Below, one piece after another: positions 8,439-22,614 of a DNA stretch of 22,614 nt; the stretch's first letter is position 1; each line of letters opens with the position of its first letter. A program made the position numbers and the translations under genes. The notes under the pieces were generated by a model that was not told the origin of the DNA, searched no databases, and was given only the letters and a program-made list of their open reading frames with translations. The stretch is from IMG/VR virus record IMGVR_UViG_3300020189_000074, positions 1-22,614 of that record, one strand, 5' to 3'. The stretch comes from a virus.

Positions 8439-10121
8439 ATGCCCACTAACGAACTTACCGATCTCGAAATCAAAGCAGCGCCAGCCGGCCAGATGACCGT
8501 AAATCAGGCAAAAGGCATCGTCGAGGCTTTCGTTGCAGGAATTGGCAACAAAGACTCTGTGGGCGATATTTGCGCCTCGGGAGCGTTCAACGCGAGCCTT
8601 AAGCGCCGCAAGCCACGCGTGGTGTGGGGACACAACTGGAATGACCCAATCGGTAAAGTGCTTGAAATCTATGAGGTTCCGGCTACCGACCCCCGCCTTC
8701 CGGAAAAGATGAAACGTGCCGGAATCGGTGGACTTTACGCAAAAGTTCAGTTCAACCTCAACAGTGAAAAAGGACGCGAAGCGTTCGCAAATGTCCAATT
8801 TTTCGGTTTAGAGCAAGAATGGTCAATCGGATACAAAACGCTCGACGCCATTTTCGATCCCGCCAAGCAAGCGAATGTTCTCAAAGAAGTCGAACTTTAC
8901 GAAGTCAGCCCAGTTCTTCATGGCGCAAACCAGTTGACGGGAACAATTTCCGTAAAAGCAGCGAAGCAGAAACTGCGCGACCCCAAGGGTGGGCTGACCG
9001 CCGCTGGGCGACGTCACTTCAACCAGACCGAAGGATCGAACCTCAAGCCGGGCGTTAAAGGTCCTGCTGATACGCCGCAAAAAATGCGTCGGAAAGGCTC
9101 GTTTCTGACTCGCTTCTTCACAAACCCATCCGGGCCAATGAAAAAGCCGGACGGCAAGCCGACTCGCCTCGCACTTTCAGCGGCTGCATGGGGCGAACCA
9201 GTTCCACAAAACCGCAGTGACGCAGCCAAACTCGCCGCAAAAGGACGTCGACTCCTTGAACGCTACGAGAATGCGAAGAAAAAAGATGCTGATTGGGACG
9301 AGGAGCAAATCGACTATACGGTCTTTGAGAACTTCTTCGCCGAGGATAACCCCGAGTTCAAAACGCTCGAAACTGACGAGGGATTCTCTATTAACGATAT
9401 TGAAATCGACGAGGTCGACGAAAAGGGCCACTACATGATGCGTATGGTTCCACGCAGAGCCCCAGAAAGCCCCCGCCGTGACATTTTCGCAGAAGGCGAA
9501 GCGCAATCCCTCAATGCGGAGAAGCGAAACGCCCTTGAAATGGAAATTGCTTCACGAACCCAGATGCCGATCAAACTCATTGAGGCGACGGAAAACTTGG
9601 CTGTCTTTGCTAAGAGCAAGCCAGATGGTACTAAGAAGTTTTACCGCCTTCCATACCACTGGGACACTGAAACCCAGCAATACATGTTTGGCAAGCCAGA
9701 GCGCGTCGAGCCAGCGATGATGTGGCGCCCACGGAAGCCACGCGTCGTCGTCCCATCACAAATGCCGTCAATGCCGGTTGAAGTAAAGCCTCAAGGTGAA
9801 GGGCGAGGCGAGTACAACAACCCTGTAACCGTGAAGTTTGAAGAAGATGAGAAAAGCGCAATCGATCAAATGATGGAGTGGCTTGATGAATCTGAAGATG
9901 TCGAAATGAAGGAAGATGCTGTTCGCTTCATCATCGAATGCGACATGGAAGATGCCTTCAACGTGAAATCTGCATTCGACCCAATCTTCGATTACTACAA
10001 AGTTGACGTCGAAGTTACTGAAGATGGAATTGAAGTTCTGTCAGAGGCTTCTGACGACTTCTTGAATGCCATTGCGGTTGCTTCCAAATCGATCTTCGGG
10101 GAGACCGAAAAAAAAGTCTGA
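8439..10121 (+). CDS. HK97-family prohead protease with KGGLTAAGR-type (DUF6321-like) domain and acidic tail
   Basis: A 560-residue protein. Residues about 1-165 match the HK97 prohead protease family, a serine protease that trims scaffold and capsid proteins: H65 in VVWGHNWNDP and a candidate nucleophile S129 in EQEWSIGYKT, followed by ELYEVSPVLHGAN. Residues about 181-282 form a separate module with DPKGGLTAAGRRHF, GSNLKPGVKGPADTP, KMRRKGSFLTRFF and PTRLALSAAAWGEPVP, which I recognise as a phage domain usually seen elsewhere (DUF6321-like). An acidic mixed C-terminal part (about 450-560) ends at a likely frameshift site. Start ATG 8439 has AAGGAG six bases before it; a GTG at 8421 is less likely. 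At 560 residues it is far longer than typical prohead proteases (about 180-250). Confidence 0.9.
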   Translation: MPTNELTDLEIKAAPAGQMTVNQAKGIVEAFVAGIGNKDSVGDICASGAFNASLKRRKPRVVWGHNWNDPIGKVLEIYEVPATDPRLPEKMKRAGIGGLYAKVQFNLNSEKGREAFANVQFFGLEQEWSIGYKTLDAIFDPAKQANVLKEVELYEVSPVLHGANQLTGTISVKAAKQKLRDPKGGLTAAGRRHFNQTEGSNLKPGVKGPADTPQKMRRKGSFLTRFFTNPSGPMKKPDGKPTRLALSAAAWGEPVPQNRSDAAKLAAKGRRLLERYENAKKKDADWDEEQIDYTVFENFFAEDNPEFKTLETDEGFSINDIEIDEVDEKGHYMMRMVPRRAPESPRRDIFAEGEAQSLNAEKRNALEMEIASRTQMPIKLIEATENLAVFAKSKPDGTKKFYRLPYHWDTETQQYMFGKPERVEPAMMWRPRKPRVVVPSQMPSMPVEVKPQGEGRGEYNNPVTVKFEEDEKSAIDQMMEWLDESEDVEMKEDAVRFIIECDMEDAFNVKSAFDPIFDYYKVDVEVTEDGIEVLSEASDDFLNAIAVASKSIFGETEKKV

Positions 10122-10147
10122 GGGGTCGCGCTCAAAGTTTCGACCCC
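10098..10147 (+). promoter_or_regulatory. Candidate programmed -1 ribosomal frameshift site
   Basis: The protease frame reads GAA AAA AAA GTC TGA, giving the slippery heptamer A-AAA-AAA at 10109-10115 within a run of eight A (10108-10115). Six bases later begins a stem, GGGGTCG (10122-10128), that pairs perfectly with CGACCCC (10141-10147) around a 12-base loop. A Shine-Dalgarno-like GGGGAG (10098-10103) lies just upstream. Slippage by -1 avoids the TGA at 10119 and enters the next long frame at AGT (10115). Slippery run, spacer and stem match the known layout of bacterial and phage -1 frameshift sites. Confidence 0.75.
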
Positions 10148-12991
10148 AACGCTGTAGATGGTGACGAGGACGGTCTCGTTCAGGAGGGCACCCCCTTCGA
10201 GCGTCCAGCCACACCCAATGTCGCTCGCGCCCTTAGGAGCGCCACAAGTTCCGCCGGATTCGACGGGATGAAACGCGACGATATGGCGAAAATGCGTTCA
10301 GAAGAATTCAACGAGGCGGTACAGAAACAGTTCGAAAAAGCAAAGGAACTGAGGGCCGAACTGTACGAGAAATATCCAAAACTGGATGCGATGCTTGCAG
10401 CGCAGCAGATTGCGACCGTCACTTCAGTTCGCACCGGTCAGGACATCCGTGAAGAAGATGTCATGGAAGAACTTCAAGATCTGCTGAAGATCGATAGCGA
10501 CGAAATCGACGACCTAGCAGACATCATCGCCAGTACACGATTCAGCCAAGACCTCCTCGAAGCGGACGAAGCGCAAATGTCAATTTCTCGCGCTCGAGAT
10601 TTCGTTGAGGAAACAACTGAGGACATGGGGAACATCTCGCTCGCAATCACCGACATGGAAGAAGACGTAGAAACCGCTCTTGACCGAATCAAGAAAGAAC
10701 TTGACGGCATGGAGATTTCTACAGGGCAATTCAAAGATCTTGCTGAATCCGATGACCGTGCCGACGCAACCCGCAGGCTACTCACTGATTTGATTGACGA
10801 CCGAGAAGAACTTGAGCAACAGATTCCTCAAATGGGCTACCTTCTTGAAGATTACGACGAGGTCAAGGAGATGCGCGATCAACTCAAAGACCTCGTAGAT
10901 GAACTCGAAGAACTTTCAAGTGGACCTGTTGAATCTAGGGAGCGGGGACGAGATCTGCTTAAGCAAGGTTTCCTGAACGCTGACTCACTAAACACGGGGT
11001 ACGACGAAGACAAGTTTCGTGAGATGCTTGGAAAGTTCCGCAAGACAAAGACTTACGAGCGTGCCACCGAAGGGATGACAATCGTCCGCAAGCGCAGTAT
11101 TCCAAAATCTGAACCCGTTGCTGACAGCGACGCCGCAAGGGACATTCATGGACTTGGAAAGCGCAGCATCATCAACATCCCGGAAACGGGCGTTCAGGTC
11201 ATGCTCAACGATGATCAACGTGGCGATGCTCGTCGCACCATCGCTGGTCTCAGGTCATCAACACAAAATCCTGATGCTTTCGAGAAGATGGACGAGTGGC
11301 TTTCCGGTAAATCGCCCAATATTTCGCGAGATCAGCATGAGGAGATTTTCAACGAGTTCGCAGATGCCGCCAACCGGGATTTGGATCTTGGAGACCTCCG
11401 ACACGTCCGTGACGCGATCAACTTGGCGGCAATGTCTGAAGATGGAAAATGGAAAACGCCAAAGGCTGAGGGTGGATTCGATGGAAGACCAAAACCCGCT
11501 GGTCTGACTAAGCGCCAAAGAGCAGATTTGTTGGAGTGGGGGCAAAACGACGCAGATGACATGCTGCGTAGACGCTTCGTTGGTCTGAAAGAAGATGATG
11601 TGTCCCCCAAGGGGTGGATGATGCTCCGCAACGATTTTGGCGGTGGCATGCGTTCAGCAACTGGCGGTGGAAGCATCAATGAAACGCGTGACACCGGCAA
11701 GCGAGCACAGCGAGGTAGGCCGGTTGGCGCTGGTGATGAGAAGAAATTCAAGGGCAAACCGTTCTCGGAAGTAAAACCTGACAATTGGGATCAGTTGACT
11801 GCCGATGAGAGGTTTGACGAACTTCTTACGAATTTGCACCCTTCTAAGACCGGTCTTCGAGAAGTTGACTTCAACCGTTTGAGAAAAGAACTGGTGCTGG
11901 AGTCTCTCCGCTCAGATCAGGAAAGCGAGCGTGCTCGACGTCGGGCTCAGCGTCGGGAAGCGCTGGCGAACGTCAGGGTAAGCAAACCAACTGAGCGCCC
12001 TGCTGCTCGACCTGCTCCAGTTGCTACAACCGCTGAACAAGCCAAGAAGCAGCGTCAGCAGGAAGTCACGAAAATCGGCAACCGAGTTGCCCGTATTTCG
12101 TCAAATATTGACAAGCAGTTCGAGAGAGACGAAGAACGTGGTTTGGACCCCAACGATGAGTCCCATAGAGATATTTGGGCGTCACTTACCGACATTTTGG
12201 AAGATAGCGATGAGTTAACCCTGTCTCAAGCAGAATCCATCGCTGCAACCCTTGACGACTACCTAGAAGAAGCATCCGGAGCAGATCTTACTGCAACCGA
12301 ATCAAACAGTGTCCAAAATGCTCAGGTTCTTCGCGCAGATATGGGCGATCTGATTGACAGATATAGGCTTGACCCGAATATCAGCAAGGGTGACAGTTCA
12401 GCGGCGGTCCGAATTGGCGGCGAAGGTGAAGAAGATGTCGCCACCACCGGCCGCTCCGCCGCACGATTCCTTTCCGAAGGCGGAATGCGATCATTTACCT
12501 CATACAAGCCTTCCCCAACCGTCCAAGAATACGCAGAAGCACGCAGAAGCCAAGGGCTACGCAGTCAACAGGCTGGACGAACCGTAATCAATGAGGAAGC
12601 GACATTCTTCAAGGCAATCGAAGATTCTCTGGCAAAAGAAATCAGAGAAGCACGTAACGCCAACGATTCACGAACGGTTAAGGGGCTTGAACTACTTCAG
12701 CGAATTATGCGTCGTCAAGATTCAGGCAAAGTCTCGGATCGTCGAACCAACGCCGGCGCACTTTGGGTGACGGCAGACGAAGCCGATGAGATTTTGGACG
12801 CGATGATGTTTGCCCTTGACCGACAAATGGAAACAGGCGGATCTAGGGTGGACCTGTATGCACAATTTGTCGAAATTATCTCGGCTGCCGCAATGGGGAC
12901 ATTCATCAGCAAGACGACCTCGGAGGTTTCGTCACGAACCCAAGCACGAACGAACAGTCAAGGACGACAAGTAAATATCCCGAATCAGTAG
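10115..12991 (+). CDS. Large coiled-coil virion/scaffold-like protein, probably made as a -1 frameshift fusion to the protease
   Basis: No named family is recognised. The first ATG is 10268 (907 residues, no clear Shine-Dalgarno), but the frame is open and coding-like for 51 codons before it: RAQSFDPNAVDGDEDG, then LVQEGTPFERPATP, then ALRSATSS. No ATG, GTG or TTG exists there, so entry by -1 frameshift from the protease is favoured, giving about 1517 residues in total. Numbered from ATG 10268, residues 1-220 are acidic and coiled-coil-prone (for example EMRDQLKDLVDELEELSS); the middle holds a KPDNWDQLTADERFDELL segment and a basic Arg/Ala/Pro stretch. Four further (G)(L/M)RS motifs occur at 11246, 11645, 12482 and 12554. 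Position after the protease suggests a scaffold or internal virion component. Confidence 0.75.
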   Translation, partial: SLRGRAQSFDPNAVDGDEDGLVQEGTPFERPATPNVARALRSATSSAGFDGMKRDDMAKMRSEEFNEAVQKQFEKAKELRAELYEKYPKLDAMLAAQQIATVTSVRTGQDIREEDVMEELQDLLKIDSDEIDDLADIIASTRFSQDLLEADEAQMSISRARDFVEETTEDMGNISLAITDMEEDVETALDRIKKELDGMEISTGQFKDLAESDDRADATRRLLTDLIDDREELEQQIPQMGYLLEDYDEVKEMRDQLKDLVDELEELSSGPVESRERGRDLLKQGFLNADSLNTGYDEDKFREMLGKFRKTKTYERATEGMTIVRKRSIPKSEPVADSDAARDIHGLGKRSIINIPETGVQVMLNDDQRGDARRTIAGLRSSTQNPDAFEKMDEWLSGKSPNISRDQHEEIFNEFADAANRDLDLGDLRHVRDAINLAAMSEDGKWKTPKAEGGFDGRPKPAGLTKRQRADLLEWGQNDADDMLRRRFVGLKEDDVSPKGWMMLRNDFGGGMRSATGGGSINETRDTGKRAQRGRPVGAGDEKKFKGKPFSEVKPDNWDQLTADERFDELLTNLHPSKTGLREVDFNRLRKELVLESLRSDQESERARRRAQRREALANVRVSKPTERPAARPAPVATTAEQAKKQRQQEVTKIGNRVARISSNIDKQFERDEERGLDPNDESHRDIWASLTDILEDSDELTLSQAESIAATLDDYLEEASGADLTATESNSVQNAQVLRADMGDLIDRYRLDPNISKGDSSAAVRIGGEGEEDVATTGRSAARFLSEGGMRSFTSYKPSPTVQEYAEARRSQGLRSQQAGRTVINEEATFFKAIEDSLAKEIREARNANDSRTVKGLELLQRIMRRQDSGKVSDRRTNAGALWVTADEADEILDAMMFALDRQMETGGSRVDLYAQFVEIISAAAMGTFISKTTSEVSSRTQARTNSQGRQVNIPNQ

Positions 12992-13176
12992 AACGTCAAT
13001 AAGTACTCCACAGAATAAGCCAATTTTGGGGTACAATTTGACAAACGGTCCTCACGAAAAAACAGTTTAAATACCTCTGCATGGTCACAGGCAAACAGGC
13101 TATGATGCCATGTAGTGGTTGTAGCATCTCTAAGAGATGTTTACTGAATAACATGCAGTACAAGGAGCCTACCAAC
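12992..13176 (+). promoter_or_regulatory. 185-bp intergenic leader with consensus -35 box and hairpin
   Basis: This is the longest non-coding gap. It contains a perfect TTGACA (13038-13043), but only TTTAAA 22 bases downstream as a possible -10, too far for a standard promoter. A hairpin CATCTC-TAA-GAGATG (13125-13139), extendable by G-T and A-T pairs on the outside, lies about 22 bases before the Shine-Dalgarno AAGGAG (13162-13167) of the next gene. It lacks a T-tract, so it is more likely a leader structure than a terminator. An open frame begins at ATG 13081 and passes through it, but no ribosome site supports that start. Confidence 0.45.
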
Positions 13177-14658
13177 ATGGAACAAGAAGAGAAAGCAGTC
13201 ATCAAGATCGATGCCGAGGGCAAGATGATGAACTGCGCCAAAGGCCATGGTGGAGACGACTGCGGCTACAAAACTGGCGCGAAGATGTGCGGCAAGTGTG
13301 GAGCCATGGCAGTTGAAGTAAAAGATGACGATGCCGACTCCGAAGATCTCGAGGCCAAGTCCTACGATGAAATCGACGAAGACGACGAAATTATCGAAAA
13401 GGCACTCGCCGCCGTTGCTACCGATGAAGACGAGGACGAGGACGAGGAAGAGTCCGACGAGGAAGAGTCCGACGAGGAATCGGATGATGACGCCGAGATG
13501 AAGGCTGTTGGCAACGCTCCACAGATGGATGAAGAAGAAGACGAAGAAGACGAAGACGAAGAAGAGGACGACGTTGCCCCCGCAGAGGCCGCCCCAGCCG
13601 AAGAGGCCACTCCTGCCGATGATGAGCCCACCCCTGATTCTGATGCCGAGATGGAAGAAGAAGAAGACGAAGACGAGGAAGAGGACGACGAAGAGGAAAA
13701 AGGCTGGATGGGTGACGCTCGCAAGCGCCGCCTCCAGACCATGGGGCGCAAATCTGCCGACCTTGGTCAGACCGGCTTCCTCTGCGCCGTCGAGCGCAAG
13801 GTGTACCCGGGAAGCGCATCCGTCTGTGACGACTGCCCGGGTGGATGTATCGCCGAAAAAGGCATGCCCGGTCTCATCGAAATCGAAGGCAAGGCCGAAG
13901 CAGAGTTCAACGGTACCGTCATTGATTCCGGATACTCGCAGGACAGCGACATCTACGTCATTGACCTTGAAGTTAAGGACGGACACGCCATCGAAGTGTT
14001 CATGGAGGGATCCACTGGCGAAACCCTCGGCTTCCATCGTCTCGACGACTCTGTGTTTGAGCAGAAATCGCTGACCGCTGACACCGAACTAATCGATTTC
14101 AACGTCGCTGCCGAAATTGCCGTCAAATCAATCGAAGGGGTTGAAGGCATCGTTACCGCTGTGGAGCCTGACACCTTCGAAGGCTTTGACGTTTACGCAG
14201 TAGAGGTCGACGGTATTGATGGCAAGTCATATGACGTATTCGTCGCTCTAGACGGAGAAGTGCTTGGTTTCGACACTTACGAACCGGACGAGGCGGAAGA
14301 GATTGAAGCCGAAGCGGCAGAAATCGCCCTCAAGCGTGCGTTTAATGAATCCCAGCGAGAGGAAATGGCCAAAGAAGGTCTTGCGCTTCCTGATGGTTCT
14401 TTCCCAATTTCCAATGTTGACGATCTGCGCAACGCAATCATGGCCCATGGCCGCGCCGTCGACAAGGAGAAAGCCAAGAAGCACATCATTAAGCGCGCCC
14501 GAGAAATGGGTAAGGAAGAGATGATTCCTGCTGCTTGGACATCCGCCAAGAAAGAAGACGCCGAGGTGAACGACATCAACGACGCAAGTTTCATGCGTTC
14601 GCTGGTCGAGTTTGAAATGCTCATGAACGAGGACGACAGCAACGACGGGAACTCCTGA
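13177..14658 (+). CDS. Acidic cysteine-rich virion-associated protein with PepSY-like repeats and DUF6582-like domain
   Basis: A 493-residue protein. ATG 13177 is chosen for its AAGGAG nine bases upstream. Domains in order: a zinc-ribbon-like segment with C20, C29, C38 and C41 (CGYKTGAKMCGKCGA); an extremely acidic tract (about 45-185) of Asp/Glu runs; a second cysteine cluster with C203, C217, C220 and C224 (ASVCDDCPGGC); two PepSY-like repeats (about 240-295 and 310-370; the second includes SYDVFVALDGEVLGFD); and a C-terminal module (about 397-454) with GLALPDGSFPISNVDDLRNA and KKHIIKRAREMG, which resembles the DUF6582 domain of phage capsid-associated proteins. It is probably a head or head-assembly protein; the acidic tract would suit a scaffold or DNA-mimic role, but this is inference. 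Confidence 0.82.
   Translation: MEQEEKAVIKIDAEGKMMNCAKGHGGDDCGYKTGAKMCGKCGAMAVEVKDDDADSEDLEAKSYDEIDEDDEIIEKALAAVATDEDEDEDEEESDEEESDEESDDDAEMKAVGNAPQMDEEEDEEDEDEEEDDVAPAEAAPAEEATPADDEPTPDSDAEMEEEEDEDEEEDDEEEKGWMGDARKRRLQTMGRKSADLGQTGFLCAVERKVYPGSASVCDDCPGGCIAEKGMPGLIEIEGKAEAEFNGTVIDSGYSQDSDIYVIDLEVKDGHAIEVFMEGSTGETLGFHRLDDSVFEQKSLTADTELIDFNVAAEIAVKSIEGVEGIVTAVEPDTFEGFDVYAVEVDGIDGKSYDVFVALDGEVLGFDTYEPDEAEEIEAEAAEIALKRAFNESQREEMAKEGLALPDGSFPISNVDDLRNAIMAHGRAVDKEKAKKHIIKRAREMGKEEMIPAAWTSAKKEDAEVNDINDASFMRSLVEFEMLMNEDDSNDGNS
13444..13479 (+). repeat. 15-bp tandem repeat in the acidic tract
   Basis: GAGGAAGAGTCCGAC occurs twice in direct succession (13444-13458 and 13459-13473) and is followed by a partial third copy. 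It encodes the pentapeptide EEESD inside an Asp/Glu-rich tract, consistent with expansion by slippage. Confidence 0.8.
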
Positions 14659-14681: not shown

Positions 14682-17600
14682 ATGGCCAACATCCGGGCCG
14701 AACGAGTAATACTTTCTGATCGCGTCAACACCTATCGACGTGATTACGAAACCATTGGTGCTCTCTTTCGGATAAAGAGTGCGGTACTTGCTTCCCAAGA
14801 GAGCCTTGACCCAAACATCTCTGTAAAAGCGTTAAATCAGGATCTTCCCAAAAAAGATAAAAAAGATTCTGAGAAGCGCACTTCTGGTACGGGAGTTGAA
14901 GAACAACTCCCCGAACTTCGCTATGCGCCTAACGGCAAACGTGGCCGTGGCGACGTACTCAAACTGCATGTAACCCCACGCGACCTCACAACTGGCAACG
15001 AACCAAACTTTGGTTGGATTCCTGCTCCTGAGAAAAAATCCGAAGAGGAAACACGCAAACAAATGCGTGAACTGTTGGATTGGAAGAAGCGCCGACCCAA
15101 AGTTCGCGTCAGGAGTTTTCGTGCTGACCCAAGAACAGGTCAACGAGTAGAGGATTCCGGTGTCGATGTCGAAGTAAAAGGACTCGGCAGAAAACTGAAC
15201 CAGATTGTTCCCGGAGGGAATTTGTCCTCACGTGCGGCTGGGGCAGTTGGAGTACTAACTGACGCAAACGGGAAATTCCGATGCCCGCCCGGAACCCCGG
15301 CAGCCAACCAGTTCACCGATGAATTTGGTACAAACTGTTTCAAACCAGCACTCTCCTCGCGTCGACTCATTGGAGCGATGCGTCGGTGGTTCGACAAATA
15401 TGTTGAACTCGGAGAACAAATCCAACTGCTTGAAAGCATGGGCATATACGGTGTCGGGCCAGACGACCTAACCCCTCAATACAGGCAAAACATCCGAAAC
15501 ATGGTTCGGGCTGCTGGAAGTGTTGCGCCAAAAGAACGCGTCCAAGAAGTTCAATCCCGAATGGACACCGCAATTGATGCCCTCCAAACACGACTTGGAA
15601 CGACTCGCGACACCACAGACAATGCCGACATGTGGACCGCGCTGGCAACGCTGGCCGCCGATGAATGGCAAGACCTTGACTTCTCAGGGATTTTTTCCGG
15701 ACCGGAAGGCTGGGGTTCGTGGAACAAAAACATGCTTGCCGACCCAAAGGGTCGCACTCCTCAAGCAGCAGCAGATCACACTGCCGACGTTCGTAGCCAA
15801 TACATCTCAATGTTTGACAACTGGGTGTCGGACGGCCCAATGCGCCAAAGGTACCGAGATGGAGACCCCGAAGCCAGAGCCCTCATTGACGAAATGGTTA
15901 CCCGCCATCTGGCAGCAGAGCGTGGCTTCTTAAAGGCGATTCTTCAGGAGTATCAAGAATCCCCGGAAATCATGCGTCAAGTAAAGACGCTAGGCCGAAC
16001 GCAAATCCGTGATGGCGAGGCGTTTGATGACTATTGGCGAGTAGATGGAGAATGCAGCCCGGCAGGTTTCCACCCCAGAGATGGGTTCGCTCTGAATATT
16101 GACTTCAACGCGGCAGCAGTGGCTCTGAAACCAGCAATCCAAAACGGACTAGCAAATTACACTTCTGACGGCCGCATCCTCTTATTCGATATCGACCCCA
16201 ACGATGTGTCTCGCTCATTCACTTCGGAAGCCGAACAGTGGGCCGAAATCGGAAACCTGATGCAGAACACCGTCGATCTTGAACGGTGGCGAAATGTTTA
16301 CGCTCAAGACCTTTCTACCGCACGCCACGGCTCAATCGAAGCAAAGGGTGTGCATATCGCAAAACATGAACTTGGTCACGCCCGCCAGTACCAGTTCATT
16401 AAAAATGCCGTCTTGGACACCCACGCCAAAACAGGCTCCACCTACTTAGTCAACTCAACTTCAGGTCAAATTGAACGGCTCGACGTTTCTCCCGATCAGT
16501 GGACTAACCAGCAATGGGTTGATGTGGTGACGAGTCAGGTTCAACGTCTTATCCCAGAAAAGTACCTCGCCGATGGCTTCCCACCGACGTCGCTTGAGAC
16601 GTTCGAAGGAACAATGCTTCACATCATGGCGGGAAGGTATTACCAAGACGAAGTTCAAAATTTCTTCAACTTGAATGATGATGCCAAACGAGGACAGTCG
16701 GCATTGATGATGCTCGAAGGCATGACAGAATTGCGCGCGCTTCGAGATATGGGTGTCCTCATGGATCCAGAACTCGACCGGCTCGTGTCATGGATGGACG
16801 ACGTTGACCCCAGAACACCGGAACGCCCTGATCCGCAAGGAGTTATCTGGCCGCCGCCGACAAGTTCAGCAATGCAAGTGTTCCAGCCGGATCCCAATGG
16901 AACGTGGGACACAATTAGCCGCACCCCGATTGAAGATCCAAACCCGTTCATTCCTGACCTTGGCGGAAAACAGGAACATATCGATGCCATCAATTCACGC
17001 ATCTCAAGTCTCAATCGCAGTCTTCCCGACGCCGAAAGAGACCTTTTTGATCCAAGAAGCGAAGTCGTCGAAATCCAGAACGGCAATGACGTTGTCGAAC
17101 AACTGAGAAGTGGCAAAACCGCTCTCGACATTGAAAACCTGACGGTTAAGAAACAGCAAATCATTGACCGCGAAGTACTTGCTGAGGACATCGCAGCAAC
17201 AGGAGAAATCGACGATGTTGGGGATCTCGAGGTCGGCGATGCCATCCGATTCAAAGGATTCAAAACACTTGATCGCCGCATGGATGCTGATCAAGAACAA
17301 GACCTTTCGGCTGACGAAGGAAAACGGAAAGTCAACTTTGTTCTACCTAAGGGAACAAAAGGCATCGAAAAACAAAACCCGGCGAACAACGAGCCCGATC
17401 AGGTTGAGATTCCCGGCGGAGAATACGAAGTCCGTTCTGTTAACCCAGATGGAACTGTCACGCTAGTTCCCCGCAGCCAAGATGATGCCGACACCGTTGC
17501 TCGTCGCCTCATCGACAGTCTTGATGGAAGTTCCGACATAGACGACGTTCGCGATGCTGTAAGAACAGTTCAGAAACGGGCGCAGAAGTACGTCCAGAAA

Positions 17601-20600
17601 AAGGAAAAGATTCGTCGAGCCACGCGATCCAGCGACCCGGCCACCGCACAACGTATGGAGCGGCGCAATGCGGCGATTGTCGAAGAAATTCGGCAACGTG
17701 GAGCAAACCCATTCCGCGTAACCGACAGAGATATCGAACGCATCTGGGGCTCTGTAAGACCCGGTGAACGTCCACCATTCACCCGTGCCCAAGCAGAAGA
17801 GGCTTACGGACGTGCGCTCGAAACTATCGAAGATCTCCGTGGCCGACCAACAACTGGGCGATTTGGTCGAGCATTGGAAGCAACTGATGAAGTCAGAGAA
17901 TTCCTAGAGACCGCCCGCCAAAGCGAAATCGGTGCGCGTATTGAACGCGCTGTAATGGAGTACCACAACGGTTTCGATTCACGCCCACGATACCGGACCG
18001 ACATGGACGGCCTTCAGAGCATCATTGACACAGGGGACTCACGTGGCCTCATCCCGCCACGCGGTTCTCAGTGGGATCCGTTCCTTGATGCTGAAGATGC
18101 CATGCAAGGGTTCACTCCAGATGATGGAATTCGTCCACTCTTCGGCAATCTGCTGCACGCTGACGATGACAGCGCCATTCAACGCTACTTGGACAACATC
18201 AAGGGTTACGCCGCTATTCGAGACTCGGAGTTCTTCGATCGGGTAACTGAGTCGCCACTCGGCAAAGTCCTAACCGGAGATGTCGAATTGGTTCTTCGTG
18301 CCGATGTCGCTCGCCGAACCGGATACGGAATTGGTGATGCACGAGGTCAAATCGCGTTTGGCGTCATGATTCACGACGACGATCCAGCGCGTGTCCGTCA
18401 AGCACTCCTGACACGTCGATTTGGCGGACCTATTGACGACACCGCAACCACAGGCGCAGCATTGGACTTCTTGCACGCAGACCTGACCGGTGACTACTCG
18501 GGAATCAGAACCCCGATGGACACCCTTTCCCTTGACGCTGGCCTCAGCGTAGACGTCAGAGATCGAACTATCCGTGGACGAGTAGACGCAGATGCATTTA
18601 TCGCAGGCGGATTCAACGGCGAAGAACTAGAAAATGTTCGAATCGGTAGTGCTTCACTGAACTACAAACGTCAATTCCTAGCACCAGCAGAAGTCGGCGC
18701 GAACAACAGCGAACTCCGCAAGAGGCTCGGTCTTGCCGGTCTCTCTCAAACTGAAGTAGACACCGTGTTTGAGTTCGCTCAAAGCGGCCGCCTCGACCTC
18801 GAATCAGCCGACTTGCTACGAATGAACAAAGCAGCACGGGAACAGGCAGACCGTTTCGCAAGAGTCGGTATCAGCACAACTTTCACCAACGATAAGGGCA
18901 TTAACGTCCTTGATGGTGCTTCGGTATCGGTAGAAACACCGGGTATTGGCCGCATCGAAGCATCCAAGCGTGCCGACGACATCCTGCGTGTACGCCTTGA
19001 GGGAGAAATCGCCGAGCGCGCAGAAGACATTGCCAAACAAATTCGATCTGGTGTTGGTCTTCGTTCAGCAACCTCTTCACCACGCCGAGACGCCCCAATC
19101 AATGTCGTTGACCCCTTTAGTGATGACCCATTTGGCGGTGTGGTTGACCGAGCACGGACTGTTGTCACCGACCGTATTCGCGACGAAGTAAGCGAAAGAG
19201 CAACGGCGCTTGCAACAGAGAAGATTGGCCGTCTGGGAGCCAAACTTTCCCGTCGTCAAGTTCAGAATCGCGGCATACAAAGAGTTGGCATGAACGTTCT
19301 TCAATCGGACCGAGCAGAAAATTTGCTTCGTCGGGCCGGACTTGAGACAGACGACATTGAGAACATCCGCTTTGTCGGTGAACTTGCTGCTGCCTTCGGA
19401 ACTTCCGGACCGGCCGGCGTCGGATTGGTTCTCGCTCGACGCGGAAGCCGTGAAGGAATCGATTTTGGTGTTCGCAAAGCACGCGAACAAGGTTGGATCA
19501 CCGACAGCCAAGCCAACGCAATCTTGCGCGCCGCAGACACCGTTGCACCAGAAGGACTTCCTGATGCGGTGACGAACGCAATTGGTGAACAAGCGCAGCG
19601 AGCCATCAACTCAGACGCAGCCGATCGTGCTAGGGAAATCGCAAGCGCCGCCGCTGAACGTGTGCGTGAACTTGACCTTGGTGATCGTGTTGGGGACATT
19701 TTTGATAGGGGTCGCACGGCCGATACTCCTGCTCTTCCGTCCACACCCAACGACCCATTCTCCGCGAATGATCCGTTCGCACCTATCTCCGGTGGAGGGC
19801 TTCGCTCTCAAACTGGGCGTTCGATTCTCGCACAGTCGAAACCAATTTTTGACATTGAATCTGATGACGACATCAACAAATTGGCCGACGAACTGCGAAC
19901 CCTTACGCAACCAGATTCAAGAAACCCTAATAACCACGTGAGCATCGTGGCAGAAGAGTTGCGAGACATTATTGGCGATATAGAAACTCCTGATCTTCTC
20001 ACTGGTGAACCACGCAAATATGCGGAAGACATCACTGACAGCATTCCTTCATATATTGCCAACAGAGTACGCGAGCAACTGGGCGATATGCCGCTTTCTG
20101 ACGAACAGAAGCAACGCGTTGGGGAACTGCTCGCGGCATCCGAGCAGATGCGAGAACTTGACGCCTTCCGGTTTGACATCATGCAACGGAGGACACCTGA
20201 TCAAGTCACTGATACGAATGACCCATTTGGTGGTCCACCACCAAGAAGGCCAAGCGCACCACCACCAAGAAGGCCTACAGCAAACGACCCATTCTCTGAC
20301 GGTCCAGAAGAAGTTCCAGAAACGCCGCCTCAGTACACCGCTGCGCAAGCACGCGAACGTCTCGATGAGATCCTTGCAGATTCAACGATTTTTACAACCG
20401 AATTCAATCAGCGCCAAGCAACTATCACCGAGCGAGAAAATCGTCGATCCGAAGTGGAAACACGCAGGCAAGAACTTGAGTCAGTAATCAATGAACTGGC
20501 TAGATACGAAATGGTTACCGCTGACCGTCTGACAGAAGAAATTGATAGAACTGCACCAGTTGGAAAAGCCACAACCACACAAGCGGCCAAAATCGATCCC

Positions 20601-21710
20601 AGACAACACGCCCCACAGCAAGGCATTGTTCGTGACCCCAAAGAGGTCCAGCGAATCGCAGAACAGACTGTCGCTCCCGCTGCCGACCTCACCTTGCCAG
20701 AACACCGTGATGAGTTGCGCACGCTCCTGCTCGAGAACGAAAACATCACCAAATGGCTTGGCCTCATTCAGGAACGAACCCCCATCATCAAGGAGGGGAT
20801 CGGCAACTGGATGAATGATGTTTACGCCCTTAACCCACCCCCCGCAGACTGGGACGTCAATGAAATATGGCGAGAGTCCGGAGGCTTGGTCGGAGCGCGA
20901 CTTACCGAAGCGCTCATTAGAAGCAGAGGTTATGACGCGCCAGCAATGACTGTAAATGAAGCAGAAATGGATCTTCTTCTAGCCACCCGTGGACTTATGC
21001 CGATCTCACGTGGTGCTACCAACAACATGCAACGCGCAACCCTTGATTCGTCAGAAGAATTCCTCACCGGAGGCGGCATTGACGGTGCTGGGCTCTATTT
21101 CGCTATCGAAGGAACAAGCCCCACCCGACTGGGTGGCGGACATCACGAGGCCGACGGCTACATCGAAGGCGTATCAGATGCTTCTGTTATCCGTGGCGCG
21201 CTAAACCCCGGCGCGAAAGTAATGCAAATTTCTGCTGCAACACGAATGGCTGAAGAATACCGGTTGGAAACTCTAGGTGAGGATGTTGGTGCAGGAGGGG
21301 AAGCGAACCCTCTGATCGCCCTGAGGCGCAGCCTCGTGAACGACCCATCTCAGGCCGATTTGTTGGAAGCGTTAGATTCGGCGATTGTTGATTCAACCGA
21401 CCCAGCAAAGTTTGACGGAGGATCAGTTAACGGACGGACAGTAATTCCGTTGCTCTTGGGCTATGACGCTACAATTTCCGAGACACGAGATGATAACCGC
21501 GTTGTCATTCTGAACCGCTCGGCAGCAATCCTGCAAGACACAACGTATACGGGTCAAGAGTGGGCTGAGGCAAAACCATGGGATCGCCTCTTGGAACGCG
21601 CCAAAGTGCTTGGTGCCGACATGGACATTCCTATCGGCCTCTCACCGGAAGAAAGAACACAGTGGGTTCTTGAGAAGTTGGAAACAGAATTTGGAGCGAT
21701 CAGTGGATAG
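14682..21710 (+). CDS. Giant 2342-residue virion polyprotein with metallopeptidase-like and ADP-ribosyltransferase-like domains
   Basis: A 2342-residue multidomain protein. Near the N-terminus is a RCPPGTPAANQFTDEFGTNC motif (C201, C219). A zincin-like metallopeptidase motif HELGH (H562, E563, H566, then ARQYQF) is followed by candidate third ligands E679/E683 in LEGMTELRALRDMG. A central region (around residue 1199) has GDVELVLRADVARRTGYG, seen in other phage toxin-like polyproteins. Residues about 1470-1880 are low-complexity with six DPF tripeptides and a PPPRRP repeat. The C-terminus (about 2100-2300) resembles an ADP-ribosyltransferase: R2110 in PISRGATNN, GAGLYFA (2135-2141), GYDA (2260) and VVILNRSA (N2278). 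It is likely carried in the virion and perhaps injected to modify host proteins. ATG 14682 is the first usable start, 23 bases after the previous stop. Confidence 0.85.
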   Translation: MANIRAERVILSDRVNTYRRDYETIGALFRIKSAVLASQESLDPNISVKALNQDLPKKDKKDSEKRTSGTGVEEQLPELRYAPNGKRGRGDVLKLHVTPRDLTTGNEPNFGWIPAPEKKSEEETRKQMRELLDWKKRRPKVRVRSFRADPRTGQRVEDSGVDVEVKGLGRKLNQIVPGGNLSSRAAGAVGVLTDANGKFRCPPGTPAANQFTDEFGTNCFKPALSSRRLIGAMRRWFDKYVELGEQIQLLESMGIYGVGPDDLTPQYRQNIRNMVRAAGSVAPKERVQEVQSRMDTAIDALQTRLGTTRDTTDNADMWTALATLAADEWQDLDFSGIFSGPEGWGSWNKNMLADPKGRTPQAAADHTADVRSQYISMFDNWVSDGPMRQRYRDGDPEARALIDEMVTRHLAAERGFLKAILQEYQESPEIMRQVKTLGRTQIRDGEAFDDYWRVDGECSPAGFHPRDGFALNIDFNAAAVALKPAIQNGLANYTSDGRILLFDIDPNDVSRSFTSEAEQWAEIGNLMQNTVDLERWRNVYAQDLSTARHGSIEAKGVHIAKHELGHARQYQFIKNAVLDTHAKTGSTYLVNSTSGQIERLDVSPDQWTNQQWVDVVTSQVQRLIPEKYLADGFPPTSLETFEGTMLHIMAGRYYQDEVQNFFNLNDDAKRGQSALMMLEGMTELRALRDMGVLMDPELDRLVSWMDDVDPRTPERPDPQGVIWPPPTSSAMQVFQPDPNGTWDTISRTPIEDPNPFIPDLGGKQEHIDAINSRISSLNRSLPDAERDLFDPRSEVVEIQNGNDVVEQLRSGKTALDIENLTVKKQQIIDREVLAEDIAATGEIDDVGDLEVGDAIRFKGFKTLDRRMDADQEQDLSADEGKRKVNFVLPKGTKGIEKQNPANNEPDQVEIPGGEYEVRSVNPDGTVTLVPRSQDDADTVARRLIDSLDGSSDIDDVRDAVRTVQKRAQKYVQKKEKIRRATRSSDPATAQRMERRNAAIVEEIRQRGANPFRVTDRDIERIWGSVRPGERPPFTRAQAEEAYGRALETIEDLRGRPTTGRFGRALEATDEVREFLETARQSEIGARIERAVMEYHNGFDSRPRYRTDMDGLQSIIDTGDSRGLIPPRGSQWDPFLDAEDAMQGFTPDDGIRPLFGNLLHADDDSAIQRYLDNIKGYAAIRDSEFFDRVTESPLGKVLTGDVELVLRADVARRTGYGIGDARGQIAFGVMIHDDDPARVRQALLTRRFGGPIDDTATTGAALDFLHADLTGDYSGIRTPMDTLSLDAGLSVDVRDRTIRGRVDADAFIAGGFNGEELENVRIGSASLNYKRQFLAPAEVGANNSELRKRLGLAGLSQTEVDTVFEFAQSGRLDLESADLLRMNKAAREQADRFARVGISTTFTNDKGINVLDGASVSVETPGIGRIEASKRADDILRVRLEGEIAERAEDIAKQIRSGVGLRSATSSPRRDAPINVVDPFSDDPFGGVVDRARTVVTDRIRDEVSERATALATEKIGRLGAKLSRRQVQNRGIQRVGMNVLQSDRAENLLRRAGLETDDIENIRFVGELAAAFGTSGPAGVGLVLARRGSREGIDFGVRKAREQGWITDSQANAILRAADTVAPEGLPDAVTNAIGEQAQRAINSDAADRAREIASAAAERVRELDLGDRVGDIFDRGRTADTPALPSTPNDPFSANDPFAPISGGGLRSQTGRSILAQSKPIFDIESDDDINKLADELRTLTQPDSRNPNNHVSIVAEELRDIIGDIETPDLLTGEPRKYAEDITDSIPSYIANRVREQLGDMPLSDEQKQRVGELLAASEQMRELDAFRFDIMQRRTPDQVTDTNDPFGGPPPRRPSAPPPRRPTANDPFSDGPEEVPETPPQYTAAQARERLDEILADSTIFTTEFNQRQATITERENRRSEVETRRQELESVINELARYEMVTADRLTEEIDRTAPVGKATTTQAAKIDPRQHAPQQGIVRDPKEVQRIAEQTVAPAADLTLPEHRDELRTLLLENENITKWLGLIQERTPIIKEGIGNWMNDVYALNPPPADWDVNEIWRESGGLVGARLTEALIRSRGYDAPAMTVNEAEMDLLLATRGLMPISRGATNNMQRATLDSSEEFLTGGGIDGAGLYFAIEGTSPTRLGGGHHEADGYIEGVSDASVIRGALNPGAKVMQISAATRMAEEYRLETLGEDVGAGGEANPLIALRRSLVNDPSQADLLEALDSAIVDSTDPAKFDGGSVNGRTVIPLLLGYDATISETRDDNRVVILNRSAAILQDTTYTGQEWAEAKPWDRLLERAKVLGADMDIPIGLSPEERTQWVLEKLETEFGAISG
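20235..20282 (+). repeat. 24-bp tandem repeat encoding PPPRRP(S/T)A
   Basis: Two copies of an 8-codon unit (20235-20258, PPPRRPSA; 20259-20282, PPPRRPTA) share an identical 17-base core, CCACCACCAAGAAGGCC. They sit between NDPF motifs in the disordered region of the giant protein and probably form an extended proline-rich linker. Confidence 0.85.
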
Positions 21711-21927
21711 CAAACGAGTCACCACCGGAGATGACGGCATCCGTTTTCAGCCTAGCCAGACGTACTTGAAGTACATGGAAACCAGCGCTGTTCGTGAACT
21801 GCTTGATAAAGACCCCGACGTTGAACCGTACCTCCAGCAGATCTTTACTGCGCTGCCACAAGTCAGTGAAGTAATCGATCTTTACAAAAACACCTACATC
21901 ATGGCGCTGCGTGAGGTTGAAGAATGA
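21703..21927 (+). CDS. Small hypothetical protein
   Basis: A 74-residue protein of unknown function. Start GTG 21703 is supported by GGAG six bases upstream and by its 8-base overlap with the stop of the giant gene; the open frame extends further upstream only inside that gene. The sequence is soluble and mostly helical (SAVRELLDKDPDVEPYLQQI, then an LPQVSEVIDLYKNTY segment), acidic overall, with no metal-binding or membrane features. Its stop overlaps the next start as ATGA, so the genes are probably translated together. A small head-assembly or adaptor role is possible from position only. Confidence 0.75.
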   Translation: MDSKRVTTGDDGIRFQPSQTYLKYMETSAVRELLDKDPDVEPYLQQIFTALPQVSEVIDLYKNTYIMALREVEE

Positions 21928-22614
21928 GAGCAGTACTAATTGGTCAAGTTAGAAAAAACCCGGTCTACTACGACCTAGACGGAAAAGAAACTGACGCGTT
22001 CGTTGTCGATAAAGAAAACAACGTTGTTCCGGTCAACGTTATCTCCCTCATTGGCAAAGGCCTCATAGAACCCATCAACGACTCCGACTTCACTGACTTC
22101 TTTTGGAATGGTTCCAAAGAGAGCAGCAAAAGATGGGAAAACATTTTTATCCATCGCGTTCAAGATGTGCCAGACAAACTGTTGCGTGGAGTTCAAATGC
22201 TTACCACTCCACCAAAAAAGAAGAATCCGGCGCGATCGAAAGCCGTTGAGGAAAAAGCGCTGAGAGCAGATGCCTACAAAGCGCTTGTTGAGAGCGAGCA
22301 GCACGAGAAAGCACTGGGTCGAAGTCTAAATCGATTCGGTGGAAGGGCTACTGCGGGTGTTCGTGGATTCGTTCGTAATGCCCGATGGGACCCTGACGCA
22401 TTGGATGCTGACGGTGATGGTTGGGTTCAGGAAGGAACACAGTTCGCTCGTCGGATAACCGGTGCTAATGTGACGAAACCGAATAAGCCTTCTCCACCCG
22501 AAGTCAACGTTGAGCACTATCGCGCGCTTAGAAGTCAACAAAGGCGCAATTATCAGAACTATCTAAGCGGATCGATCAGTGAACGACTTGCAAAACGTAA
22601 AGCGCGATTCTACA
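21924..22614 (+). CDS. Partial phage structural-region protein with D-x-D-x-D-G-x-VQEGT motif
   Basis: The frame is open from ATG 21924 to the window end (230 complete codons), so the C-terminus is missing. GAGG lies seven bases before the start. The N-terminal part (about 1-60) is a small mixed domain with VVDKENNVVPVNVISLIGKG; a WNGSKESSKRWENIF part and a Lys/Arg/Ala-rich helical stretch follow. Residues about 150-170 carry ARWDPDALDADGDGWVQEGT, a calcium-loop-like motif that also occurs in the frameshift extension after the protease (near 10142). An ALRSQQ follows about 35 residues later, the same order as in that extension. This suggests a shared module among the virion proteins. The family is not identified. 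Confidence 0.8.
   Translation, partial: MRAVLIGQVRKNPVYYDLDGKETDAFVVDKENNVVPVNVISLIGKGLIEPINDSDFTDFFWNGSKESSKRWENIFIHRVQDVPDKLLRGVQMLTTPPKKKNPARSKAVEEKALRADAYKALVESEQHEKALGRSLNRFGGRATAGVRGFVRNARWDPDALDADGDGWVQEGTQFARRITGANVTKPNKPSPPEVNVEHYRALRSQQRRNYQNYLSGSISERLAKRKARFY

Follow-up and report, generated by a model that had tools for sequence, protein, structure and literature searches.

How can the gene for a phage head maturation protease end in one reading frame while an overlapping frame, lacking a start codon of its own near the junction, runs on for hundreds of codons? The locus that raises this question lies in a stretch of 22,614 nucleotides of viral DNA (IMG/VR record IMGVR_UViG_3300020189_000074, positions 1 to 22,614), which we call the window. 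Coordinates refer to the window unless another locus is named, and the features of the protease gene, its junction and its tail are all on the + strand.

The protease gene and slip site of the window

The short product of the locus is a head maturation (prohead) protease of 560 residues (8439-10121), counted from ATG 8439 and ending at the TGA at 10119-10121; the mechanical ORF starts at GTG 8421, an alternative to ATG 8439. Its profile matches are Peptidase_S78 (E = 4e-12) and DUF6321 (E = 2e-28) in Pfam, and phrog_80, head maturation protease (E = 9e-32), in PHROGs. Against the family profile of Peptidase_S78 it scores 47 bits, above the cut-off of 21, which places it among the caudovirus prohead serine proteases, and the domain occupies 8505-8948 (residues 29-176, numbered from 8421). 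The alignment shows a conserved C-terminal domain of the short form at 9927-10097, which ends just 5' of the slip signal. In the predicted model of the short form the pLDDT is 85-91 for residues 501-550, 53 for residues 551-560 and 61 overall, and a structure search with this model gave no match below E 0.1.

Directly after this domain lies an SD-like sequence, GGGGAG (10098-10103), a possible frameshift stimulator; the 18 nt upstream form a duplex of −7.9 kcal/mol with the 16S 3' end. The gene ends in the zero-frame codons GAA AAA AAA GTC TGA, from which a slippery heptamer A AAA AAA in zero phase (10109-10115) can be read directly, inside a run of eight A (10108-10115). A stem-loop follows at 10122-10147, with a perfect 7-bp stem (GGGGTCG, 10122-10128, and CGACCCC, 10141-10147) and a 12-nt loop. 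The zero-frame stop of the short form, TGA (10119-10121), falls inside the 6-nt spacer (10116-10121), and the coordinates thus agree with the preliminary description, which had placed this stop in the six-base spacer between the heptamer and a perfect, GC-rich stem of 7 bp. The product sizes given there are likewise correct: 559 residues of protease and 958 of tail make a fusion of 1517, next to the 560-residue protease from ATG 8439.

The eight-A run is the sole run of at least seven A on both strands of the window, while shuffles averaged 9.2 matches. The RNA of 10109-10160 folds with −14.4 kcal/mol (z = −1.9 versus dinucleotide shuffles), which is modest taken alone. The eight A are shared by four contigs (L001-L004), which over 13.4-13.7 kb are identical to the window except for 1-5 substitutions and one 15-nt indel.

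In the −1 frame, the 958 open codons at 10115-12991 would be fused to the protease as a tail when entered by frameshift. Reading this frame bears out the earlier claim that it contains no ATG, GTG or TTG before 10268: the first of these is found at codon index 51 (10268), and none occurs 5' of the slip in the same frame. A motif with the sequence DGDEDGLVQEGT lies 5' of any start codon, at 10157-10192, and has what we take to be a Ca-binding-loop-like pattern. As previously suggested, it has a counterpart elsewhere in the window, the similar motif DADGDGWVQEGT in the ORF at 21924.

The codons at the beginning of the −1 frame could be compared with those of relatives. Over the 26 codons from FDPNA onward, 14 synonymous changes and 1 nonsynonymous change separate the window from L005, and equally many separate it from L007; the counts are 12 and 1 for L160 and 12 and 3 for L010, and no second codon position differs. 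Judged from these codons, the −1 frame of the window is under purifying selection before its first start codon, and no other observation speaks as directly for translation of the frame as part of a fusion.

The signal in related phages

A protease search of IMG/VR gave 342 relatives; the 80 best were retained, and further scans and a scan of GTDB genomes added others. The collected set comprises at least 346 sequences, at least 302 of them with the protease, repeat fetches of the same contigs included; many of its rows are close relatives, and 112 groups are distinct in protease-domain DNA. We assigned 61 of these as continuous with a site, 8 as reversed with a site and 36 as lacking a site, and 7 were not judged. 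The automatic states before manual editing were 63 continuous, 7 reversed, 35 none and 7 not judged (n = 112). Five were changed by hand: L149, L333 and L339 to none, the heptamer being off the junction or the stem weak, and, despite weak stems, L006 to continuous and L280 to reversed. The scan for A-run patterns favours A-rich sites by design; the protease-based searches alone give 61, 7, 35 and 7 groups, respectively.

In the 61 continuous groups protease and tail form a single ORF that keeps a zero-phase heptamer, followed by a −1 stop 2-35 nt on and nearly always by a stem. The heptamer is mostly G GGA AAA, also A AAA AAA and once C CCA AAA. It is located 25-36 codons past the conserved anchor '..DPIFDY..VTEDGI' where this was found, or 21 codons in L221 and L243. 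The preliminary description had the frameshift join the protease to a partner protein. The programmed −1 frameshift is strongly supported, but the partner is not a separate gene: 61 of the 112 groups encode the tail without interruption as the C-terminal portion of the protease ORF, and a slip in these would cut the protein short.

Clustering the protease domain at 90% identity gave 29 clusters: 14 continuous, 2 reversed, 1 with both arrangements, 1 with continuous members and members lacking the site, and 11 without it. Site-bearing members are thus present in 18 of 29 clusters. Some of the 36 site-less groups (L012, L054, L061, L214 and L110) keep a continuous tail, so that the two products are not universal; the short form may not be needed by every phage, or may be made otherwise, for example by proteolysis. 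Some groups assigned to none have heptamers near the junction that were not counted, such as C CCT TTT in L054/L061 and A AAA AAA with no strong stem in the L323 group. In L018, L019, L021, L022, L031, L323 and their relatives the protease leads into ORFs of more than 2000 codons that run off the edge of the locus, with no recognised slip site and stem at the junction. The continuous G GGA AAA form also occurs in L344 (JASLZV010000001.1), binned as a Phycisphaerae bacterium, which is probably a phage contig in a MAG.

The frequency of the signal was determined in a recount in which the choice of heptamer did not depend on stem, stop or SD-like sequence. Of the 110 groups from the protease-based searches, 23 lacked the anchor and 3 offered too little sequence; the other 84 have a located junction. 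Between 15 and 45 codons past the anchor, G GGA AAA or A AAA AAA occurs in the slippery phase in 61 of the 84 groups, versus 0 and 2 in the other two phases, and this is the X XXY YYZ phase of dnaX-type −1 frameshifting. One of the two off-phase heptamers is presumably the window's own eight-A run. Perfect stems with a score of at least 16 lie downstream in 38 of 44 distinct sequences, compared with 75 of 2640 windows drawn at random from these ORFs; in the family the stem-loop begins 2-11 nt past the heptamer, mostly 4-8 nt. An exception is L126, which has the heptamer without a stem; the stems of L006 and L280 are weak, and L005, L243, L273 and L281 have no perfect stem. SD-like pairing of −5 kcal/mol or lower was found in 40 of 45 distinct upstream 18-nt stretches, versus 457 of 2640 background windows, as a sequence match that could partly reflect conserved Gly codons. 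Among 40 distinct continuous members, a −1 stop occurs within 14 nt in 33 (40% of background positions) and within 35 nt in 39 (65% of background positions).

Across whole ORFs the same phase preference was observed for heptamers with a strong nearby stem, near copies included: G GGA AAA occurs 50 times in the slippery phase versus 5 and 10 in the others, and A AAA AAA 28 times versus 8 and 7. For A AAA AAG with a stem the counts are 2 in the slippery phase versus 34 and 5 elsewhere, some of these being the same A-runs, and this heptamer, the one of E. coli dnaX, is not used in the family. Earlier sets of 49, 60 and 67 junctions had been conditioned on a stem mfe of −9.5 or lower and, for continuous members, also on a −1 stop within 60 nt. 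Their figures, partly circular for stem and stop, were stems in 39 of 49 versus 87 of 2940, SD-like pairing in 94% versus 17% and stops within 14 nt in 87% versus 40%; the unconditioned recount is at least as strong.

Taken individually, the stems are unremarkable against shuffles, with z = −0.9 in L067 beside the −1.9 of the window. The MAFFT alignment of the stems mixed 3-nt and 5-nt loops, and pair types were counted by a script instead, which found G-C and C-G about equally frequent at the middle stem positions. An arrangement that recurs with different letters across the family is, on this comparison of sequences, beyond chance.

The eight-A run is also a plausible substrate for transcriptional slippage, in which RNA polymerase adds or drops an A and the mixed mRNAs give both products by ordinary translation; Thermus thermophilus dnaX works in this way, as part of PMC5009743 relates. 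For the present family we regard this explanation as improbable, since most site-bearing relatives carry G GGA AAA, which is no homopolymer, and since phase, short-spaced stem and SD-like element are all kept, none of which transcriptional slippage needs.

Very probably, a dnaX-type programmed −1 ribosomal frameshift maintains the short protease and the protease-tail protein together. Ribosomes translating the protease gene would pass the SD-like sequence and then slip on A AAA AAA, or on G GGA AAA in most relatives, while the GC-rich stem-loop downstream would hold them up at the slip site. In the window, ribosomes that do not slip would stop at TGA 10119 and yield the 560-residue protease, and those that slip to −1 would read 958 more codons to the 1517-residue protein. 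Most site-bearing relatives would operate in the opposite sense, with the zero frame giving the long protein and slippage the short protease.

Reversals of polarity and comparison with known frameshifts

The reversed polarity, in which the zero frame stops and the −1 frame enters the tail, was found in 8 groups belonging to three clades, the window included. In L005, L007 and L160, the closest relatives of the window, the run is seven A long and the ORF is continuous; L010 is also continuous, with the heptamer A AAA AAA. Because the closest relatives with seven A are continuous, the window lineage apparently gained one A, going from seven to eight. The second reversed clade, L067/L072, reads CGA AAA AAA GAA GAC, followed by a 6-bp stem and TAG. 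The third consists of L275, L267/L269 and L280, and has continuous relatives with A AAA AAA (L271/L273/L281) and with G GGA AAA (L277/L324). A quick tree was built from 102 protease domains labelled continuous (61), reversed (7) or none (34), with L345 and L346 excluded. On this tree the reversed label needs 4 changes, and the starred branches force at least 2. The reversed group L154, absent from this tree, represents the contig species of the window itself in a truncated copy.

These comparisons bear on whether the frame break of the window is real. The preliminary description named as its main alternative an A missed in sequencing, which would make the fusion permanent; this alternative does not do away with the programmed frameshift, since eight A are read alike in the window and the four contigs, and the continuous relatives keep the heptamer, the SD-like element, the stem and the nearby −1 stop. 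More generally, the break could be a recent mutation or an assembly error, in a gene that is really a single ORF or has a decaying tail, as the continuous seven-A sisters and L010 might suggest. We give this very little credence: the eight A recur in the four contigs above, the tail retains its conserved C-terminal domain and all 958 open codons, purifying selection acts on the −1 codons that precede the first start, and two other clades are reversed likewise. That the tail is a separate protein translated from an internal start, by ATG 10268 or by reinitiation, is equally improbable, even with a GTG or TTG two codons past the slip in the −1 frame of L275 and L267/L269, where reinitiation is possible from the sequence, because the conserved codons FDPNA..DGLVQEGTPFERP evolve as protein 5' of the window's first start, relatives encode the fusion in one frame, and slippery phase and stem would go unexplained.

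Under programmed frameshifting, both arrangements would give both proteins, and for this reason conservation seems to act on having both products, whichever of them is the default. A single base swaps the two roles, and has done so more than once, which suggests a frameshift efficiency near 50%, where such a swap costs little. We tentatively propose that the protease gene is an approximately 1:1 splitter, which would make about half of the molecules as bare protease and half with a very long inner-head tail, selection keeping the stoichiometry and not the frame. As part of this proposal, which we make with similar reserve here, single-base indels may repeatedly have exchanged default and slipped product without displacing the signal. 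The reversals amount to a natural evolutionary experiment on which ratio is kept. Ordinary annotation would probably split the reversed cases into two genes or take them for a broken gene, and in continuous relatives it would probably miss the short product.

The layout of the signal is that of E. coli dnaX (tau/gamma), which has a heptamer, an SD-like sequence upstream and a stem-loop downstream. The two differ in the heptamer, A AAA AAG in E. coli and G GGA AAA or A AAA AAA in the phage family, and in the gene, a polymerase subunit there and a phage head maturation protease here. In dnaX, too, slippage leads to a nearby stop and to a shorter product of a continuous ORF, and the dnaX section of PMC5009743 describes a reversed polarity in a minority of bacteria and a reversal of roles at about 50% efficiency. 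The G/GT tail assembly chaperone of lambda is similar in that a frameshift in an assembly gene sets the ratio of short to extended product, about 30:1 (PMC5009743, in part), but there the gene is a tail chaperone and the frameshift extends the protein, whereas here it is a head protease and the frameshift usually truncates it. That source also gives two frameshift products from a virion or assembly gene in T7/T3 (coat protein), Lactobacillus phage A2 and Listeria PSA; in these a capsid protein gains an extension, and here the gene is that of the maturation protease. The protease-scaffold-capsid fusions of small-genome actinophages also join a maturation protease to further assembly domains, and the passages of PMC7302621 on them mention no frameshift.

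The frameshifts named in the relevant parts of PMC12733950, PMC5824014 and PMC2884959 concern tail chaperones and a primase. In the portions of the literature consulted, the structural-gene frameshifts of tailed phages affect tail chaperones, major capsid or tail proteins, and we found no programmed frameshift in a head maturation protease among open-licence papers. The mechanism is of a known kind, and the gene is one for which no described frameshift was found; the dnaX-like site is common to many uncultured phage lineages.

Isolated phages were also searched. None of the 60 records listed, of 233 matched by the window protease, covers 80% of it. For the full L101 protein, the 52 matches listed of 205 (the 12 best and 40 spread over the others) lie within query residues 1-172, and none covers 80%. 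Searches of isolated phages with the window tail end and with nucleotide sequence gave no match. The genes of Gordonia phages GMA6 and DalanDe and of Streptomyces phage Gilgamesh, scanned from 200 codons past the match start, have no zero-phase X XXY YYZ heptamer.

The tail and its neighbourhood

The C-terminal part of the tail (12434-12988) carries a conserved domain, identified in an alignment of 30 sequences and present in both continuous and reversed phages (the window and L072 among the latter). AlphaFold2 predicts it with a mean pLDDT of 82. With its C-terminal 185 residues, Foldseek found no fold match at E ≤ 0.001 in PDB or BFVD, and a PDB profile search none at E ≤ 1. The whole tail has no Pfam match at E ≤ 0.1, only sub-threshold ones (E 1.7-2.2), and one weak match in PHROGs (E 0.008). 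Compared with known head scaffolding proteins, neither the sequence of the whole tail nor the fold of the C-terminal 185 residues gave a significant match. In one relative, L011, a KTSC domain was observed in the tail.

The contig behind L003, which belongs to the species of the window, extends further, and about 24 kb past the protease it encodes a major capsid protein of the HK97 type. Three further genes 5' of this capsid gene carry D.D.DG.VQ[ED]GT after FDPNA or a variant of it. Since the junction motif is common to genes before the major capsid protein, the tail seems, by its sequence, to be a member of a set of large, presumably structural proteins. The motif was observed at window position 22404 (ORF 21924-22613, which runs off the window edge) and at L352:208, L352:5890 and L352:10095. 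Preceded by a basic stretch resembling KALGR, it thus occurs in three more genes located between those for the portal and the major capsid protein, and it may serve virion proteins as a junction or processing module.

Proteases of the Peptidase_S78 type work in proheads. Because the tail is fused to a protease of this family and shares its junction motif with the large portal-to-capsid genes, it could act in the head during assembly, as a scaffold or as inner-head cargo carried by only part of the protease molecules, a role that we put forward with some hesitation.

Directly after the tail, at 13081-14658, the window encodes a strongly acidic protein of 525 residues without a Pfam match above threshold; its identity is 53-69% in the listed relatives outside the window's species, and 78% over part of the protein in L005. 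It is followed at 14682-21710 by an ORF of 2342 residues without Pfam or PHROGs match, the first 220-415 residues of which match relatives, where the closer loci end. The window has 15 extra bases relative to the four near-identical contigs, at about 13441-13455, in the acidic part of the 525-residue gene.
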